DNA of 64,000 nt from Marinomonas sp. UCMA 3892 (GTDB lineage Bacteria; Pseudomonadota; Gammaproteobacteria; Pseudomonadales; Marinomonadaceae). Below are positions 22,376-30,434 of the stretch, one piece after another (positions within the stretch are counted from its first letter, which is position 1; every line of letters begins with the position of its first letter). The notes under the pieces were generated by a model. That model saw only the letters and a list, made by a program, of their open reading frames with translations, did not search any database and was not told the DNA's origin. The stretch spans positions 188,124-252,123 of the forward strand of contig NZ_PTXN01000004.1 of NCBI RefSeq assembly GCF_012726345.1. The letters are read 5' to 3'. Position numbers and translations under genes: made by a program.

Positions 22376-22999
22376 ATGTTCATTCGAGCTTACCTTCGTG
22401 CATCAACCAAAGAACAAAATGCTGAACGGGCACGCGAATCACTCATTCAGTTTGCTGCTCAGCATGGCCAGCGAATCGCCGCTTTTTATATCGAGAATGT
22501 TTCTGGGGCCACGTTGCACAGGCCTGAGTTGATGCGTTTGATTGCCGAGTCAGGCGAGGGTGACATTGTGCTAGTTGAACAAATCGACCGCCTGGCGCGG
22601 CTTAAACAAAGTGATTGGGATACGTTGAAACAAAAATTGGCCAGCAAACGCCTAGCCATTGTTTCACCGGAACTGCCAACCAGTTGGCTGGCTTTGCAAC
22701 AACATAGCGAAACTGACTTTACCGGTGCTATTTTACAGGCGGTGAATGCCATGATGTTGGACATGCTCGCTGCCGTTGCCCGCAAAGATTATGATGACCG
22801 GCGACGTCGTCAATCACAGGGGATCGCAAAGGCTAAATCCGATGGTAAATATAATGGGCGTCAACCTGATCTCAAACGGCATCAGCACATAGCTAGCCTA
22901 TTGAAGACTGGCCATAGCTACAGCGCTATCCAGGATATGCTTGGTTGTTCAAGACATTTGATTTCTTGCGTGGCAAAACAGCAGAGAAGCGTGACATAA
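22376..22999 (+). CDS. serine recombinase, resolvase/invertase family
   Basis: 207 aa. The N-terminal catalytic domain begins FIRAYLRASTKEQN, where the serine in RAST is the nucleophile. The conserved arginine region IDRLARL is near residue 75. A C-terminal helix-turn-helix at about 165-205 (HSYSAIQDMLGCSRHLISCV) binds DNA. This small resolvase/invertase type resolves co-integrates or inverts segments. It could resolve the island or flip part of it; no paired inversion sites were identified. Confidence 0.92.
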   Translation: MFIRAYLRASTKEQNAERARESLIQFAAQHGQRIAAFYIENVSGATLHRPELMRLIAESGEGDIVLVEQIDRLARLKQSDWDTLKQKLASKRLAIVSPELPTSWLALQQHSETDFTGAILQAVNAMMLDMLAAVARKDYDDRRRRQSQGIAKAKSDGKYNGRQPDLKRHQHIASLLKTGHSYSAIQDMLGCSRHLISCVAKQQRSVT

Positions 23000-23107
23000 A
23001 AAGCTAGTTAACAGGATTAGATATTTGTATTTTTACATGGTGATTAATATTTATGCTGTGATATAAATGTATATACATATGTAATTGAGTCGCAAAAGGA
23101 AATGCAA

Positions 23108-23425
23108 ATGTCTGGTTCTGGCGGTAGCTACTTCGGTCCTTCCTCTCCCACCACTTCATGTGAGGCTCTCCAATTTGTCACCCAGCTTGCTTCACCCAAA
23201 GCGCTGGTGATAGAAGAATTAAATGTTGATGATATTCTCGATGTTGTTTTTCAGCCCAGTAGTGTACAGGTTGTTGTTGCTCTCTGGCATGGAAATGAGG
23301 CAGGAGGTATTGTCGATCCACATCTAGCGCAGCTGCGTAATTGCATGAATCAAGGTGAACAGTTTCAGGCAAAGGTGTTGGCACTGAGTGGTGGCCAAGT
23401 TCGTCTTCGGGTCTACCACGTCTAA
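23108..23425 (+). CDS. small protein with SGSGG N terminus, partner of QueC-like enzyme
   Basis: 105 aa. Of two in-frame ATGs (23102 and 23108) the second is chosen because AAAAGGA ends 7 nt before it but only 1 nt before the first. The protein then begins M-S-G-S-G-G-S-Y. Methionine removal would expose Ser-Gly-Ser-Gly-Gly. The rest looks like a small beta-rich domain with Cys at 18 and about 79. From memory, small MSGSGG proteins recur in genomic islands, without known function. Adjacency to a QueC-like gene suggests it is a modification substrate, by analogy to reported N-terminal deazaguanylation. A 26-bp gap and strong RBS join it to the next gene. Confidence 0.8.
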   Translation: MSGSGGSYFGPSSPTTSCEALQFVTQLASPKALVIEELNVDDILDVVFQPSSVQVVVALWHGNEAGGIVDPHLAQLRNCMNQGEQFQAKVLALSGGQVRLRVYHV

Positions 23426-23451
23426 AGTCCATATTTAAACAAGGAGGTTAA

Positions 23452-24663
23452 ATGATCACTGTCGTTGGAGGCGTCTACCGAGAGAGATGCATGCGCCCAG
23501 TATGGGATGATGTTTATGGTTCGGCAGGCAGGGCTGCCACGGCTATTGCCCGTTTTGGCGGGCAAGTTGAGCTGCAGGCTAGTGTGGATGAGGACACCCA
23601 AGTTGTTATCGAAGCTCGTGCTTCTGCTGAAGGGTTTAAGTTTAAGCCATCTATTGCAGATTCAAGTGTTACCTTTGAATACATTCATGGACTATCAACT
23701 CCTATTATCCATCGTAAAAAACATATCCAATCAAATTTGCAAGTTCGAGCCGAGAAAGTTCTTCGATTCGGAATGATAGATGGAACGGCAGTAGTGGATG
23801 CCGAGTACGCAGTCTTTGATCCACAGAATGCTGATAATCCAGAATCCTTTAAGGCCAATGGATCTAGTGCCAAACACTTCGCTCTGGTACTAAACCGTCA
23901 TGAGGCTAACTTGCTTATTTCAAATTGTAGCTTTATACCCCCAAATGAGCTTGCAACCCAGTTAGCTAAGCAAGAAAACGCAGAGGTTGTAGTTATCAAA
24001 ATGGGCCCACTTGGGGCTCTAATATACGATAAGGGGGATATTACTACTGTGCCAGCTTATCGGACACAGCGAGTTTGGAAAATTGGCTCTGGGGATACAT
24101 TTGCCGCCCACTTCGCTTTAGGGTGGATGGGAAACGGTCTTTCTGCTCATGATGCTGCTGCATTGGCATCGCTAGCAACTGCCTTCTATTGTGAACATCA
24201 AGGTTTTCCAGACCAAGCATTACTCAACAAATTTAAGCCAAATCCACTACAACCTTCTGCCCGTTTTCGAGATGGTTTTATACCCAATGTATACCTAGCA
24301 GGTCCGTTTTTCACCCTTGCCGAGCTGTGGATGGTCGGACAGTCTCGCAGAGACCTGATGGCTATGGGGCTGAAAGTATTTTCCCCATACCATGATGTTG
24401 GTCTTGGTGCTGCTGAAGATGTGGTAGAGAAAGATATTGATGGTATACGCAATTGTGATGTTCTTTTTGCAATTACCGATGGACTTGATTCCGGCACGAT
24501 CTATGAAATTGGTTACGCACGAGCTCTTGGTAAGCCAGTTATTTGCTATGCGGAGAATGAATCGGAGCAGGACAAAAAAATGATGGAAGGCTCCAACTGT
24601 TTGATCACCGATGATTATGTAAGTGCAATTTATCAAACTGTTTGGGAAGCCATTATTTTATGA
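23452..24663 (+). CDS. PfkB-family kinase fused to nucleoside 2-deoxyribosyltransferase
   Basis: 403 aa in two domains. Residues 1-270 are a ribokinase/PfkB fold: GSAGRAATAIARFGG near 24 and the ATP/catalytic motif GSGDTF with D215 as base. Residues 277-403 are a nucleoside 2-deoxyribosyltransferase-like domain: VYLAGPFF at its start, and DSGTIYEIGYARALGKPV with E352 as likely nucleophile. Such enzymes cleave or exchange the base of nucleosides or nucleotides. Fused to a sugar or nucleoside kinase it could release or supply a modified base such as a 7-deazapurine; that is inference. An AAGGAGG site precedes the ATG, and it overlaps the QueC-like gene by 4 bp. Confidence 0.85.
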   Translation: MITVVGGVYRERCMRPVWDDVYGSAGRAATAIARFGGQVELQASVDEDTQVVIEARASAEGFKFKPSIADSSVTFEYIHGLSTPIIHRKKHIQSNLQVRAEKVLRFGMIDGTAVVDAEYAVFDPQNADNPESFKANGSSAKHFALVLNRHEANLLISNCSFIPPNELATQLAKQENAEVVVIKMGPLGALIYDKGDITTVPAYRTQRVWKIGSGDTFAAHFALGWMGNGLSAHDAAALASLATAFYCEHQGFPDQALLNKFKPNPLQPSARFRDGFIPNVYLAGPFFTLAELWMVGQSRRDLMAMGLKVFSPYHDVGLGAAEDVVEKDIDGIRNCDVLFAITDGLDSGTIYEIGYARALGKPVICYAENESEQDKKMMEGSNCLITDDYVSAIYQTVWEAIIL

Positions 24664-25265
24664 AAACAGGACTTTTACTTTCTGGCGGTATGGACTCTCT
24701 GACACTTGCTTGGTGGAAACGCCCTGATATGGCTTTCACGTTGAATTATGGTCAGCTAGCTGCACAAGCTGAAATTCAAGCTTCAAGCATCATATGTCAA
24801 CGACTACAAATTCCTCATCATGTTATTGAGATTGACTGTCGGCAACTAGGCTCGGGTGACATGGCGGGTAGCAAAGCGGAGCACTTAGCCCCCGCTTCAG
24901 ACTGGTGGCCTTATAGAAATCAGATGTTAGTTACGTTAGCTGCAATGAAAGCTATTTCATTCGGTGTTACTCATCTTTGGTTAGGTACTGTAAGGTCAGA
25001 TAGCCTCCATAAGGATGGAACTCCAGAGTTTATGTCTGCAGTAAGCCAATTACTATCCATACAAGAAGGCGGAATGGTGGTAGAGGCGCCTGCAATCGAG
25101 CTTTCTACAGTAGAATTAGTTCGCAAATCAGGCATTCCTGCTGAACTTCTTGCATGGGCTCATAGTTGCCATAAGTCTAATGTAGCTTGCGGTGATTGTC
25201 GTGGCTGTAATAAATACATGGAGGTATTTCATGAGGTAGGATATGACTTGGATCGACTTGGGTAA
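24660..25265 (+). CDS. QueC-like ATP-dependent deazaguanine enzyme
   Basis: 201 aa, starting at the ATG that overlaps the preceding stop (ATGA). The PP-loop motif SGGMDS (8-13) binds ATP, NYGQLAAQAEI matches the QueC core, and four cysteines (C170, C177, C180, C183) form the zinc site. True QueC converts 7-carboxy-7-deazaguanine to preQ0 for queuosine synthesis. No queD or queE is nearby, and the protein is shorter than housekeeping QueC. Related proteins are accessory components of type IV CBASS and Qat. A role in defence-linked deazaguanine chemistry is therefore favoured over queuosine synthesis. Confidence 0.88.
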   Translation: MKTGLLLSGGMDSLTLAWWKRPDMAFTLNYGQLAAQAEIQASSIICQRLQIPHHVIEIDCRQLGSGDMAGSKAEHLAPASDWWPYRNQMLVTLAAMKAISFGVTHLWLGTVRSDSLHKDGTPEFMSAVSQLLSIQEGGMVVEAPAIELSTVELVRKSGIPAELLAWAHSCHKSNVACGDCRGCNKYMEVFHEVGYDLDRLG

Positions 25266-25923
25266 ACCTGTTCCAAGACAACATCCTGAAAGGTATGAGT
25301 TAATCCAATGGGATGTAGGAGAGATATTCACACTCCCAGCATTATCAGAGGAGCTTGATTGGCCATTCAGCAAAGTACTAAACGCACGTATATCACAACG
25401 TGAATTTGGTACTTTAGATGATAAACAACTAGGGACATTTCTGTGGAACGCTTGTAGAACTCGAGCTATTGCTGTCTCAGAACTAGGTTTTGATTTGGAG
25501 CATCGAGCTTCTCCTTCAGCCGGAGCCATTCATCCGATACATATCGTCATAAAAAGGCCCGGGGATGGTCGTTGGTGGTTGTATCAACCCAAAACACACG
25601 AAATGGCTGAACTCAAAAACGTACAAAGCAAACTTAGTCCCCTTTATGAACACAGCTTGTCTGTTTTGGAAGGCAATAATGCGACTCGTATATTATTTTT
25701 GGCTGAAACAGGCAAAACTTTAGGTAAGTACCAAGATGGTTGCAGTCTCATTTGGCGAGATGCAGGTGCTTTACTTGCTGTAATGGCTTTTGTAGCTGCT
25801 GCCCAGGGACTTAACTTCTGTCCTCTGGGCATAACTGGTGAGCCGTGGGCTAGCAATTTAGCCGAGAAGGGAAAGTTGGCTGGAGTTGGACTCGCGCTTC
25901 TTGGTTCGCCGTTGGGAGATTGA
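25243..25923 (+). CDS. SagB-type nitroreductase-like FMN protein
   Basis: 226 aa; the start ATG lies inside the end of the QueC-like gene (23-bp overlap). The motif HRASPSAGAIHPIHIV (near residue 87) matches the RPSPSGG-type loop of SagB/nitroreductase proteins. IWRDAGALLAVMAFVAAAQG near 170 matches the FMN-binding C-terminal half. SagB-type enzymes oxidise azolines in peptide natural products; others reduce nitro groups or flavins. Its substrate here is unknown. Its 3' end overlaps the convergent glycosylase gene by 66 bp. Confidence 0.8.
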   Translation: MTWIDLGKPVPRQHPERYELIQWDVGEIFTLPALSEELDWPFSKVLNARISQREFGTLDDKQLGTFLWNACRTRAIAVSELGFDLEHRASPSAGAIHPIHIVIKRPGDGRWWLYQPKTHEMAELKNVQSKLSPLYEHSLSVLEGNNATRILFLAETGKTLGKYQDGCSLIWRDAGALLAVMAFVAAAQGLNFCPLGITGEPWASNLAEKGKLAGVGLALLGSPLGD

Positions 25924-26691
25924 TTCTGACGTATTACGTCCGCCCCCTATTATGTTATGAACAGTGGTTGGAGACGACATCATCTCCAGCCACATCAGTG
26001 CATCGAGCTCGGATGCTCTGACCCCCAGCCCTTTACTGAAGCGAATAAATTGCTCTTCAAGCCTCAAATAGTGACGTTCAACCGTCAAGTTGCTCTCGAA
26101 GAATTTACCTAGCAATCCTGCCCGAAGAATATGTATGTCGAGGATAGCAACATCATCAGCGTCTAACCAATTACGTGCAATCCATGAAGCTGTTTTGTAT
26201 CCTATACCCGGAATATCAAGTAACCAGTCACGAAGAGCCTTGCCTGTATGAAGTGGGGGCAATTCTTCGGATAGCTTATTAAGAGCCGCACTTAGATAGT
26301 GAGCTTTCTGCTTAGCAAACCGGTACCTTATGTGACGACCTTCAATTTCCAAAGGCTGTTTTAGCCACTCAAGTAATGTATCTTCTGGCGGTGGCGTATC
26401 TCCGAAAGCTCCGCAATCTTTTATATGGTGAAAGGCCGCGAGGCCAACCGCTGCTGGTATACCATGTCCGCCCAACAAACAGGCTCCAACTTCTTCTTTT
26501 AAAGTTGCTCCTAGTTTGTAGTTAATGCGATCACCTGTGAGGCGGCGAGCATATACTTGATAAGCCCAATACGCTGGAGTAGGGAATGCTTCCATTGATC
26601 CCCAAGGGACACCAGGAATAACTTCGTCATCAGCTTTGGGAAGCTCGACGTTAAAGACCGCTTGGCCCATGAAGATAGCACCTAGTTGCAT
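25858..26691 (-). CDS. OGG-like HhH DNA glycosylase
   Basis: 277 aa. The helix-hairpin-helix LLDIPGIGYKTASWIARNWL contains the catalytic lysine K166, and ILDIH contains the conserved aspartate D185, the pair used by 8-oxoguanine glycosylase/lyase. The N-terminal domain differs from ordinary OGG1. OGG-fold proteins are accessory genes (Cap11) of type IV CBASS, where QueC-like proteins also occur. It could excise a modified base or act on nucleotides. It starts within the TAATG overlap with the methylase gene, so the two are coupled. Confidence 0.85.
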   Translation of the reverse strand: MQLGAIFMGQAVFNVELPKADDEVIPGVPWGSMEAFPTPAYWAYQVYARRLTGDRINYKLGATLKEEVGACLLGGHGIPAAVGLAAFHHIKDCGAFGDTPPPEDTLLEWLKQPLEIEGRHIRYRFAKQKAHYLSAALNKLSEELPPLHTGKALRDWLLDIPGIGYKTASWIARNWLDADDVAILDIHILRAGLLGKFFESNLTVERHYLRLEEQFIRFSKGLGVRASELDALMWLEMMSSPTTVHNIIGGGRNTSESISQRRTKKRESNSSQLSLLG

Positions 26692-27368
26692 TAGGCGACC
26701 TCCTCAGCATTACCGTAGTGTTCCTGCATCCATTCCAGTAACTCATGCCGTTCAATTGGATTTAAGTTATTGATACGAGTTCGAAGTCTTTCTTGTCGCC
26801 GTTGAATTGTTTGTCTTTCACGAAATGTTCCGCCTAAATAGCGACTGTCGTGCAAACGACCAATAGGTTCAAAGTTCATCCAAATAGTTTCAGTACGAAC
26901 TTCTACATGAGTCTTAGCAGGAAAGTTCACCTTTTGCCATCCAACGAGTACGCGGTTATAAAGGTCATTGTCATATCCAGAAAGCATTACTTTACAAGGC
27001 AATGCAATTAAGCACTTTAGTAAGCGGATGTGGTCTTTTTCTGTATAGTCACAGCGATAGACCTTCTTCCTCCTGCGTGTTTCCGATAGGTAAGGGGGAT
27101 CGACATACACTAACTCATGACCCTCAAAGGAATACTCTTCTAGAAACACAATAGCATCAACTTGGTAGAGTTCGCATAAATCTGGAAACTCCGTTTTCCA
27201 AAGCTTTATAACCTTTGGATCAAGGTCTAAACCAATATTCCGCAGGGCAGCTTTTTTGTTGCGCATAACAGCGCCCCCGCCAAGATGGGATTCTATATAA
27301 GTCTGATGTGGAGGCATCAGATTGATCAAGTGCTGATAGCACTTACCTTTTCCGCCTGGATATCTCAT
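26691..27368 (-). CDS. D12-class DNA adenine methyltransferase
   Basis: 225 aa from the ATG at 27368 (MRYPGGKGK). The SAM motif PGGKGK is at residues 4-9, the conserved GGGAV near 30 and the catalytic DPPY at 90-93. This places it with Dam/MboIIA-type N6-adenine methylases. The target cannot be read from sequence. No restriction endonuclease adjoins it. Upstream ATG codons at 27380 and 27377 would extend it by a few residues but lie inside an inverted repeat. Coupled to the OGG-like gene. Confidence 0.88.
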   Translation of the reverse strand: MRYPGGKGKCYQHLINLMPPHQTYIESHLGGGAVMRNKKAALRNIGLDLDPKVIKLWKTEFPDLCELYQVDAIVFLEEYSFEGHELVYVDPPYLSETRRRKKVYRCDYTEKDHIRLLKCLIALPCKVMLSGYDNDLYNRVLVGWQKVNFPAKTHVEVRTETIWMNFEPIGRLHDSRYLGGTFRERQTIQRRQERLRTRINNLNPIERHELLEWMQEHYGNAEEVA

Positions 27369-27439: not shown

Positions 27440-28015
27440 CTAGGTTCTATTAGAATATTCAATCTTTTCAATTAGATTTTTATTATTCCAGTTGCAAAGT
27501 TGCCTAACGCGCATCAGGTTAGCGTTAGCTCTGCGGATGACGGCAAAGTTGTCTTCAACGAATTCGATGACTGGCTTTTCCCAGTCTTGAGCTAGGGAAA
27601 AAGTTGAGCGTAAATAGCGATAGTGGTCGCCACGAGACAGATAATGGCTGATGACGTTATAGCCATCAGCTCCTCTTTTACGAGTGAATTCATTGTAGAA
27701 CCAGTACATTTCAAACTTTCTATCTCGTAGTCGTACTCTACAGCCGTAGTGTCCTGGATAACCGGGTGTTTCCTTACCTCGATGAGCTTTGTTATGTTGC
27801 CAAAATAGATCTGAAATCCGGCGTGCTACGTAGTAATAACGCAGTTGTTCCAGCTCAACAGACTTGTGTACGTAACGTAAATACTGTTGTGATGACAAAT
27901 GGGTGAAAAGCATTGCCTCGTCGTGATCTATCTTCTCGTCATCGCTTGAGACAAAAGTATTCCAAGCAGTAATTTGTTTTTCCAAAGTCGTAAATGGATT
28001 CGAAGTGTCAGTCAT
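27440..28015 (-). CDS. hypothetical 191-aa protein, possibly MobI-like
   Basis: Soluble and rich in Tyr, Arg and His; the ATG has GAGGATAAT upstream. Segments such as RRISDLFWQHNKAHRGK and HYGCRVRLRDRKFEMYWFYN suggest a nucleic-acid-binding protein. The pattern recalls MobI proteins of IncC/SXT elements, which are encoded next to oriT. The upstream 28016-28547 region is palindrome-rich, as an oriT would be. This is recall-based and weak. It could equally be part of the methylase-glycosylase operon downstream. Confidence 0.6.
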   Translation of the reverse strand: MTDTSNPFTTLEKQITAWNTFVSSDDEKIDHDEAMLFTHLSSQQYLRYVHKSVELEQLRYYYVARRISDLFWQHNKAHRGKETPGYPGHYGCRVRLRDRKFEMYWFYNEFTRKRGADGYNVISHYLSRGDHYRYLRSTFSLAQDWEKPVIEFVEDNFAVIRRANANLMRVRQLCNWNNKNLIEKIEYSNRT

Positions 28016-28745: not shown

Positions 28746-28757
28746 TGGGGGTTAGTG

Positions 28758-30434
28758 ATGCAATATAAGTTGCAGGATGATGGGCTCTATTGCTTGTCCT
28801 CTGATCGCTGGCTGCGAATAGGCGGTTGGATTCAGGTTTTGGCTCGTACTCGTTTAACTGACAAACGGCACGGGCATGGGGCTTTGCTGGAATGGCTGAA
28901 CTTCGATGGAGTAATGCTACGTGAAGTTGTCTATGCCCGTGATCTTAACAGCGATAACGCCCGCCAGATCAGGGATATGTTGGTTGATACCGGTTATCCC
29001 TTAACTCCAGGTCAGTCAAGTTGGAGTCGGCTTCAACATTTTCTAATAGAGCAGATGGCTCTTGCTGCTCCGGCAACTGTGGTGAATCGCACTGGCTGGC
29101 ACGGGCCCATATTTGCCACAAGCAATTGGACTATTGGAACTGCTGATGAACCCCATCATTTCGTGGGTCAGCTATCCGGTTCAGCGTTGTTAGAAGAGTC
29201 TGGGGATTTGAGTGATTGGCAAAACCATGTTGGAAAGCTGTGCAGTGGGAATCCGCTGGCTATTTTTTGTGTAGGAACTGGGTTGGCCGCACCGTTACTC
29301 GCGCCAGCGGGCATGGAAAACGGAGCCTTTCATTTCGTTGGCGCTTCTTCCGCCGGTAAAACAACTTTGTTGCAGATTGCGGCAAGCTTATATGGCAGCG
29401 ATAGCTATAGACGTAGCTGGATCTCGACAAGCAATGGATTAGCGGCTGTTTCGTCGGAGCATAACGACATGTTGCTGACGTTGGATGAGATAGGAATGGC
29501 TCGCCCTGAAGACGTTGATACCGCCATTTATCAGATCATGAATGGTTCAGGAAAACTGCGCGCTAACGTGTCAGGAGAGTTGGCCGCGACGTCACAATGG
29601 CGAACGCTGGTGCTCAGTAGCGGGGAAGTTTGGATTGCCGAATTACTTCAGCAGATAGGTAAGCCACTTAGGGCTGGTCAGCAGATACGACTGGTGGAGA
29701 TCCCAATTTTTGGTATACATGGCGCTTTCGATGAATTACATGACCGTAAGAGCGCTCAACAATTTGTTGATGAGCTTAAAATGTCTTGTCAGTGCTTTCA
29801 TGGCACAGTAATCCGAGAGTGGTTATCGCTACTTACAGGGCAGCATAATGAGCTTAGCCGCTACCTCAGTTATGAAATAGGTCGTCTTAGCAACGCTTGG
29901 ACAAGCGACTCAATGGCCTCTCAAGTACAGCGAGTCGTTAGACGATTTGCACTGATTGGTACTGCACTATGCCTCGCTAGTCGAAATTTCATCTTGCCGT
30001 GGTCTGAGGAAGAGTCACTCGATGCGGTACATAAAGTCCTTAGTGCTTGGCTCGCTAATCGTGGGCATTCTAGGAATTCCGAAGAGTTTAGGCTACTTCG
30101 GTCATTGGAAAAAGCGATGCGCAACTGGGAACGCAATATCGGTGAAATTGATCAGGATTCAGGCAAGGGAATGCCTGGTTACCGCCGTTCACTGGATGGA
30201 TGCGAATTGTGGCTTATCAACAAAACACATTTCCTGCAAAAACTTGAGCTTCCCACCCACTATATGCGAGAAGTGGAAATCTTGCTGCAACGCGGTTGCT
30301 TGGTAACGAACGAGCGCTCTAGGGGAACCTATAAGACGCGGATTAATGGTGAGTTTCAACGTTTTTTTGCGCTCAAACCAGACCAAGTTAGGCGCCACCT
30401 TGAAGATTTAGAGAGGGTTGAACATGACGACTAG
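28758..30434 (+). CDS. DUF927 domain ATPase
   Basis: 558 aa. Start ATG at 28758 with GGGGG upstream; the GTG one codon earlier is less likely. The P-loop GASSAGKTT near residue 195 and the acidic LLTLDEIGMA near 240 form Walker A and B motifs. Up to about 160 the sequence matches DUF927 (VVNRTGWHGP near 115). Such proteins occur in integrative elements and may act as replicative helicases. It lies between two small HTH genes, a common mobile-element arrangement. Confidence 0.85.
   Translation: MQYKLQDDGLYCLSSDRWLRIGGWIQVLARTRLTDKRHGHGALLEWLNFDGVMLREVVYARDLNSDNARQIRDMLVDTGYPLTPGQSSWSRLQHFLIEQMALAAPATVVNRTGWHGPIFATSNWTIGTADEPHHFVGQLSGSALLEESGDLSDWQNHVGKLCSGNPLAIFCVGTGLAAPLLAPAGMENGAFHFVGASSAGKTTLLQIAASLYGSDSYRRSWISTSNGLAAVSSEHNDMLLTLDEIGMARPEDVDTAIYQIMNGSGKLRANVSGELAATSQWRTLVLSSGEVWIAELLQQIGKPLRAGQQIRLVEIPIFGIHGAFDELHDRKSAQQFVDELKMSCQCFHGTVIREWLSLLTGQHNELSRYLSYEIGRLSNAWTSDSMASQVQRVVRRFALIGTALCLASRNFILPWSEEESLDAVHKVLSAWLANRGHSRNSEEFRLLRSLEKAMRNWERNIGEIDQDSGKGMPGYRRSLDGCELWLINKTHFLQKLELPTHYMREVEILLQRGCLVTNERSRGTYKTRINGEFQRFFALKPDQVRRHLEDLERVEHDD

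Follow-up and report, generated by a model that had tools for sequence, protein, structure and literature searches.

A mobile QueC-family gene module from Marinomonas as a candidate system for conjugating a guanine-type base to a small protein

QueC-family systems and the Marinomonas module

Type IV of the cyclic oligonucleotide-based anti-phage signalling system (CBASS) and the Qat system are the closest described systems to the gene set reported here. In type IV CBASS, Cap9 joins 7-carboxy-7-deazaguanine to the N-terminal Gly of a cyclase that starts with MGGS (PMC13279940, PMC11996544), with D117 of Cap9 reading the guanine edge and Y115 stacking on the base (PMC13279940). The Qat system depends on the MGTS start of its QatB protein (PMC13279940), and QatC, at ~400 amino acids, carries N- and C-terminal extensions and a pocket remodelled to Thr/Thr (PMC13279940, PMC13329287). 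Examining a stretch of 64,000 nucleotides from Marinomonas sp. UCMA 3892 (contig NZ_PTXN01000004.1, positions 188,124 to 252,123 of the forward strand; "the window" below), we found a QueC-like enzyme encoded beside a small protein that begins MSGSGG, together with a PfkB kinase fused to a nucleoside deoxyribosyltransferase (PfkB-NDT) and a SagB-like oxidase. Reading this gene set from its sequence and its relatives, we consider it reasonably likely to form a mobile module that conjugates a guanine-type base to the N terminus of a dedicated small protein, and its setting suggests that its purpose is probably anti-phage defence.

Like type IV CBASS, the module combines a QueC-family enzyme with a neighbouring protein whose N-terminal tail is of Gly/Ser type, and it keeps the guanine-reading Asp. 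Unlike it, the module has no cGAS/DncV-like nucleotidyltransferase and no Cap10 resembling tRNA-guanine transglycosylase (TGT) among the window genes scanned (15 by Pfam, 10 by PADLOC), mostly has Ser at position 2 of the small protein, adds the PfkB-NDT, the oxidase and a glycosylase, and has a QueC-like enzyme on a separate branch. With qatABCD it shares a QueC-family enzyme and a partner with a conserved N-terminal motif, but here the enzyme has 201 residues and a His/Asp pocket and the partner starts with MSG. The original prediction that cyclase, TGT, KAP ATPase and TatD are missing agrees with the Pfam scan of those 15 genes. The module also matches "cluster 4" of the QueC family (Libby et al. 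2026, PMC13329287) by comparison with its published description: the motif CH(x)5CxxCxGCxK is exact, PfkB-NDT is a neighbour, the size agrees and the members are mostly from Proteobacteria; the window protein has YGQ(x)5E where the paper gives YGQ(x)6E. The terms nitroreductase, SagB, glycosylase and dGTP are absent from the main text of that paper, and no other paper on the gene combination was among those listed by our literature searches.

As originally predicted, four tightly packed genes occupy positions 23108-25923, the QueC-like gene overlapping the PfkB-NDT gene by 4 bp and the oxidase gene overlapping the QueC-like gene by 23 bp, with a strong ribosome-binding site (aaggagg) preceding the PfkB-NDT gene. 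Pfam agrees with the identities proposed for the last three products (PfkB 1.3e-12, Nuc_deoxyrib_tr 6.2e-19, QueC 1.5e-22, Nitroreductase 1.6e-5), the SagB likeness of the oxidase comes from TIGR03605 family matches, and the PP-loop (SGGxDS) and zinc cysteines (C170/C177/C180/C183) of the QueC-like enzyme are intact, as had been read. Two of the earlier statements needed amending. The four genes do recur together, but the unit is larger, with a convergent OGG-type DNA glycosylase and a D12 methylase travelling along; and the small protein, described as Gly-rich, does start with MSGSGG, but its Gly-rich part is an N-terminal tail whose first residue after loss of Met would be Ser.

The small protein and the QueC-like enzyme

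Calling the starts of the small proteins blind, from an ATG and a Shine-Dalgarno match alone, we obtained 103 picks from 106 frames (3 had no ATG), and 98 of them begin M-[S/T/C/G]-G (MSG 92, MTG 3, MGG 2, MCG 1), the conservation among homologues that the original prediction called for; under naive start calls, the same start was found in 15 of 1223 other genes of the module and control loci. Among the five picks without the motif, L016, L084 and L147 gain it from an upstream ATG, L146 reads MSSG, and L150 (minus strand) lies beside a fragment. For the window protein, an in-frame ATG at 23102 is weaker than that at 23108 by the Shine-Dalgarno rule. Position 2 was never Ala or Pro in the 103 blind picks, and methionine aminopeptidase would also permit either residue there. 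The tail that bears the motif has 12-188 residues (median 19; Gly 29%, Ser 18%), and in the domain C18, G66 and C79 are invariant across 74 rows; because the rows used here and for the tail statistics were chosen by start motif, M1 and G3 are invariant by construction, and 98 of 103 is the unbiased figure for the start.

The first eight residues of the small protein in the provirus locus L099, MGGSGGGF, also begin the cyclase of a plasmid locus that PADLOC recognised as QueC, TGT and cyclase (type IV CBASS). Set against the MGGS-type tail of the type IV CBASS acceptor, Gly at position 2 occurs in just 2 of the blind picks. Searches with the small protein returned no match in Pfam, PADLOC, NCBIfam or the PDB, and HIRAN, S1, SH3 and PUA are no more than possible identities, for which weak Pfam matches appeared in just 1-2 of 74 members. 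In haloarchaea, two of the small proteins (L012:3688-4776 and L014:4128-4787) have long acidic Gly/Ser tails and apparently two copies of the domain.

True QueC has a cut-off of 150.3 bits (TIGR00364), and the QueC-like protein reached 71.4; a housekeeping QueC is encoded separately in the host genome (G000, 5.03 Mb), on a different contig. We built a tree of 72 rows, 40 of them from the module and 2 from Cap9 (QatC was left out, and 3 of 21 canonical loci gave no row owing to the motif filter), in which the 40 module rows form one branch with support 100/98 on a long stem, and the host's own QueC (L001) falls among the canonical rows. The substrate motif YPDC of QueC is absent, with HxDG at that place. 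Score, motif and tree rule out a housekeeping QueC, and the original separation of this protein from housekeeping QueC stands. With the second QueC in the genome and the conserved start of the small protein, none of the sequence-based checks that could have overturned the original prediction did so. In a profile alignment to 9nto, D119 of the window enzyme aligns with the guanine-reading D117 of Cap9 and is kept in 108 of 108 sequences. Close kinship to Cap9 was considered and rejected: 9nto_B is the top PDB match (54.9 bits, level with the QueC structure 2pg3) and a GSG-like stretch is common to both, but the tree gives such kinship no support and a second Cap9 (L175) has no such stretch.

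Recurrence, partner enzymes and genomic setting

An 11-row QueC-like alignment, run against a genome collection, found 286 relatives. The best 80 were kept, making 79 loci; all of these are at least 53% identical, so versions of the module without the oxidase are under-counted. Viral contigs yielded 49 loci, with L094-L101 as near relatives (45-64% identity) and the others below 33%, and 24 of 27 plasmid records were of the module kind (45-87% identity), the other 3 being ordinary QueC. Across the 107 loci compared by profile search (the window, L005-L101 and L143-L151), we found the QueC-like enzyme in 107, the PfkB-NDT in 105, the small protein in 103, the glycosylase in 93, the SagB-like oxidase in 90 and the D12 methylase in 51, with contig ends explaining some of the missing components (L069, L081, L091, L096, L101). 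By a loose distance rule, the small-protein gene lies directly before the PfkB-NDT gene in 102 of the 107.

The same gene order recurs in plasmids, genomes and proviruses, which answers the search for the set in other genomes that had been proposed, and the hosts include Pseudomonadota, Bacteroidota, Balneolota, Verrucomicrobiota, Spirochaetota, Thermodesulfobacteriota, Cyanobacteriota, Melainabacteria and haloarchaea. Among 369 genomes of the window's class, the QueC-like protein is present in 3 and the small protein in exactly those 3, the window's own included; together with the recurrent order, this co-occurrence puts the gene set beyond chance. In Escherichia coli, the QueC-like gene was matched by blastn in at least 18 of 5426 complete genomes (a lower bound), and in each of the four regions opened (L176-L179) the genes for the small protein, PfkB-NDT, QueC-like enzyme, glycosylase and oxidase are all present; the accompanying D12 methylase falls short of the window's in length, except in L177, where an insertion sequence interrupts it. 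Versions of only three genes, with neither glycosylase nor methylase, occur in L064, L065, L094, L095 and haloarchaeal plasmids, and those in proviruses suggest that the core may be the small protein, the PfkB-NDT and the QueC-like enzyme; a three-gene locus from Buttiauxella gave no blastn match in E. coli. Tandem modules were seen in L056:501-9081 and L066:2857-7607, each with two PfkB-NDT/QueC sets: the oxidase belongs to the first, and glycosylase and methylase come after the second. Beside a full module, L100:9603-11143 holds a second pair of small protein and PfkB-NDT without QueC; in this extra PfkB-NDT, GAGN replaces GxGD and Pfam finds nothing at 0.001, so that it looks like a degenerate copy or pseudo-enzyme.

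In the PfkB-NDT, the PfkB residues N148, E151 and G212-S-G214-D215 (NxxE, GxGD) and the NDT residue E352 are conserved in 97% or more of the 111 rows, some of which are partial, and a PDB search finds the NDT half to be kin to NDTs, Rcl/DNPH1 and CMP N-glycosidase. Fusion of a kinase to an N-glycosidase would suit an enzyme that frees a base from its nucleoside. In the glycosylase, all 93 rows retain K166 and D185, which we take to be the Lys of the helix-hairpin-helix and the Asp of the GPD part. We did not retain the idea that an OGG may itself be part of type IV CBASS (cap11): the review passage names cap9-11 without functions, and PDLC00912 is a TGT model.

Within the window, the set sits among mobile-element genes, with a serine recombinase gene upstream and a MobI-like gene downstream (Table 1). 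The glycosylase and oxidase genes converge with a 66-bp overlap, and the open frame of the methylase extends to 27404 from a TTG, the start conserved by comparison being MRYPGG. Further along, window positions 28755-30434 encode a DUF927 protein that weakly matches Cch1, the replicative helicase of SCCmec, and HTH_17 genes lie next to it; these are likely mobile-element replication genes.

Table 1. Coordinates of the module and its neighbours in the window
Feature	Position	Strand	Basis
Small protein, 105 aa, proposed N-terminal acceptor	23108..23425	+	MSGSGG tail and conserved domain; no family match
PfkB-NDT fusion (sugar/nucleoside kinase and nucleoside deoxyribosyltransferase/N-glycosidase)	23452..24663	+	Pfam, conserved residues, PDB kin
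QueC-like PP-loop enzyme with four zinc cysteines	24660..25265	+	Pfam/NCBIfam, motifs, tree
SagB-like flavin oxidase, nitroreductase fold	25243..25923	+	TIGR03605 matches; kin CyaGox, BmdC
OGG-type DNA glycosylase/AP lyase	25858..26691	-	Pfam Ogg-HhH 4.2e-14; convergent
D12 (Dam-like) adenine methylase	26691..27368	-	Pfam MethyltransfD12 5.5e-12; convergent
Serine recombinase, mobile-element setting	22376..22999	+	Pfam Resolvase 1.9e-21
MobI-like gene, mobile-element setting	27440..28015	-	Pfam MobI 6.9e-29

Elsewhere, the module is found on conjugative plasmids, near a TniB-type gene (Tn7-like) in 12 loci, in a P2-like prophage with CII and replication gene A (L064) and in another provirus (L099). 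In E. coli, a single integrative element next to ssb carries it at two sites, one chromosomal and one within a prophage. In E. coli H5, the module is 384 bp from a dGTPase gene with a second gene next to it. Clover (CloA, a dGTPase, and CloB) is a separate two-gene system with its own nucleotide signal, and the H5 system was tested in the Clover report, where passages on CloB give the mutants D71A/D73A and D61A/D63A without specifying which is that of H5 (PMC12265719); the second gene encodes Asp at positions 71 and 73 but not at 61 or 63, so it is very probably CloB of H5. Homologues of dGTPase lie near the module in 19 of the 107 loci and were considered as a further member, but given the Clover pair in H5 we read them as neighbours. 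We take the plasmid, provirus, island and Clover-neighbour setting to favour a role in defence, short of proof. Two stretches near the module are recorded for their own sake: the same E. coli element upstream of it in L177:2418-12673 and L178:2431-12685, with two integrases, large hypothetical proteins and two response regulators, and, on the plasmids L008:3261-6069 and L149:7488-9785, a ubiquitin-like conjugation set of multiubiquitin, ThiF-like and DUF6527 genes.

A proposed mechanism and its rivals

In the conjugation that we favour, the QueC-like enzyme would, after removal of Met, use ATP to activate a guanine-type base and join it to the N-terminal amine of the small protein, by analogy with Cap9 and 7-carboxy-7-deazaguanine. 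The PfkB-NDT would free or prepare this base from a nucleoside by phosphorylation followed by N-glycosidic cleavage, and the oxidase, where present, may mature the linkage. A base-binding partner, likely the glycosylase, would then read the tagged tail, the role played by the TGT-like Cap10 in CBASS.

Several observations weigh against this proposal. In most cases the acceptor residue would be Ser, where CBASS and Qat have Gly. Y115, the Tyr that stacks on the base in Cap9, aligns with H117, a position that is His in 107 of 108 sequences, and QatC has Thr both here and at the place of D119; with D119 kept and this Tyr replaced, a guanine-like base is plausible in a pocket that is not identical. 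The two Cap9 rows of the tree join the canonical side (weak support, 87/67, on long branches) and not the module branch. No recognised glycosylase was found in 14 of the 107 loci within the stretch examined, some of them cut by contig ends. The enrichment of defence genes that the original prediction looked for did not clearly emerge either: running PADLOC on the same 20 genomes, we counted 106 proteins (of 235) near the module and 107 (of 311) near canonical queC, and 66 against 93 families, with no clear excess. The families listed near the module include dGTPase (4), ThsB, Drt3b, AbiEi, BilB, JetD, MTase_I and TniQ, while those near canonical queC come mostly from several helicase (GajB) and kinase (PD-T4-6) models.

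The source of the base adds a further point against. Searching 40 host genomes chosen among the 79 loci for QueC, for 6-pyruvoyl-tetrahydropterin synthase (PTPS) and, with two models, for QueE, we found QueC over the cut-off in 31 and a QueD-type PTPS in 36. Nine of the 40 have no QueC over the cut-off; five of these (G025, G027, G030, G035, G037) have PTPS and a QueE-like match below cut-offs, and the other four lack a good QueE match, with none found by the two models in G020, G029 and G033 and a marginal one (5e-5) in G021. PTPS was also not found in G020, G021 and G033, although the models may miss some members, since G028 has QueC but no PTPS or QueE match. With four of the 40 hosts lacking both canonical QueC and a good QueE match, host-made carboxy-deazaguanine is not the general source, and the base may instead be imported, derive from infection or be a different guanine derivative. 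A VUT-family transporter is encoded in all four QueE-poor genomes, ~3 kb from the module in G029 and ~6 kb in G033. In G025 (the genome of L070), which is without a QueC over the cut-off, the PTPS and QueE-like genes are adjacent on contig C1.

The oxidase bears on what the linkage might be. All 25 family members scanned match TIGR03605 (SagB peptide dehydrogenase), the window protein with 45.9 bits against a cut-off of 78.4, and among solved structures the top matches, at 60.3 bits, are CyaGox (5lq4) and a SagB-type dehydrogenase (8pz5), followed by BmdC at ~45 bits and, far lower, McbC (15.8 bits, E 0.057). Among these, 5lq4 is a cyanobactin oxidase and BmdC oxidises thiazoline to thiazole (PMC8795117). 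A Lys-Tyr pair is retained as Tyr163 in 90 of 90 rows and Lys162 in 67 of 90. We presume this pair to be catalytic in such oxidases. The fourth gene is sequence kin to the azoline oxidases SagB, CyaGox and BmdC, but it differs from them in having no cyclodehydratase partner, in adjoining a QueC-like enzyme, in being shorter and in having no peptide-recognition domain in the matched part. Position 2 of the small protein is Ser in 82 and Thr in 3 of the 85 readable, untruncated loci with an oxidase, and Ser in 9, Gly in 3, Cys in 1 and unreadable in 1 of those without (five truncated loci were excluded, and the starts of L016, L084 and L147 re-read by hand from the upstream ATG). The association has a Fisher p of 2e-4, a value inflated by shared descent, the Gly and Cys cases being three haloarchaea and one provirus.

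An oxidase accompanied by Ser or Thr at position 2 is the pattern that azole formation would need, although the cases are not independent. We tentatively entertain such an azole linkage as a possible, speculative refinement of the conjugation above. The QueC-like enzyme would acylate the N-terminal Ser/Thr with a guanine-type carboxylate; in a second ATP step, where QueC itself turns an amide into a nitrile, the side-chain hydroxyl would attack the activated amide to give an oxazoline; the oxidase would convert this to an oxazole; and the base-oxazole might plug or steer a base-flipping glycosylase. To our knowledge, an azole linkage between a nucleobase and a protein is known nowhere else, and none was among the papers listed by our literature searches.

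Of the rival explanations, purine or deazapurine salvage or detoxification survives best, though we think it unlikely. Here the PfkB-NDT and the QueC-like enzyme would convert a nucleoside to a modified free base, with the small protein as a subunit or regulator, and this reading has in its favour that purine salvage is what the "cluster 4" authors propose from the PfkB-NDT neighbour (PMC13329287) and that VUT-family transporters are encoded near the module in L011, L151 (both plasmids) and L082 and in the genome of L075. The patchy spread in the window's class, the mobile-element and defence setting and a conserved N-terminal motif on a flexible tail speak against it, and it leaves unexplained the oxidase and the DNA glycosylase.

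Quite unlikely, in our view, is a nucleic-acid-directed system in which the glycosylase attacks foreign DNA with the methylase as a self-mark, the other enzymes make or remove modified guanine in DNA or nucleotides, and the small protein serves as a DNA-binding adaptor with an unmodified tail. The intact Lys and Asp of the glycosylase, its presence in most loci, the D12 methylase in about half of them and the nearby dGTPase homologues are consistent with such a system; the three-gene versions count against it, and the N-terminal motif would play no part. The kinship of the oxidase to azoline oxidases of non-ribosomal peptide synthetases and of ribosomally synthesised and post-translationally modified peptides, and an asparagine-synthetase-like enzyme that makes C-terminal nitriles in a pathway of the latter kind (PMC13060819), could cast the small protein as a precursor modified and released as a peptide product, but no YcaO, peptidase or transporter is found among the 15 window genes scanned, and the conserved C-terminal domain with its three invariant residues and the fixed residues at the N terminus make this highly improbable.

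A report of 2025 described protein deazaguanylation in type IV CBASS, and Qat has been suggested to perform it too; N-terminal base conjugation by the module described here would add a further QueC-family branch with a dedicated acceptor-like protein. Its spread reaches from Pseudomonadota to haloarchaea, and its presence in E. coli makes it testable in laboratory strains. For a QueC cluster whose function had been guessed as salvage, the present comparison offers a concrete protein-modification hypothesis, in which the oxidase points to an azole linkage; were that linkage true, the module would be a chemically distinct QueC-based protein-tagging immune system beside type IV CBASS and Qat.

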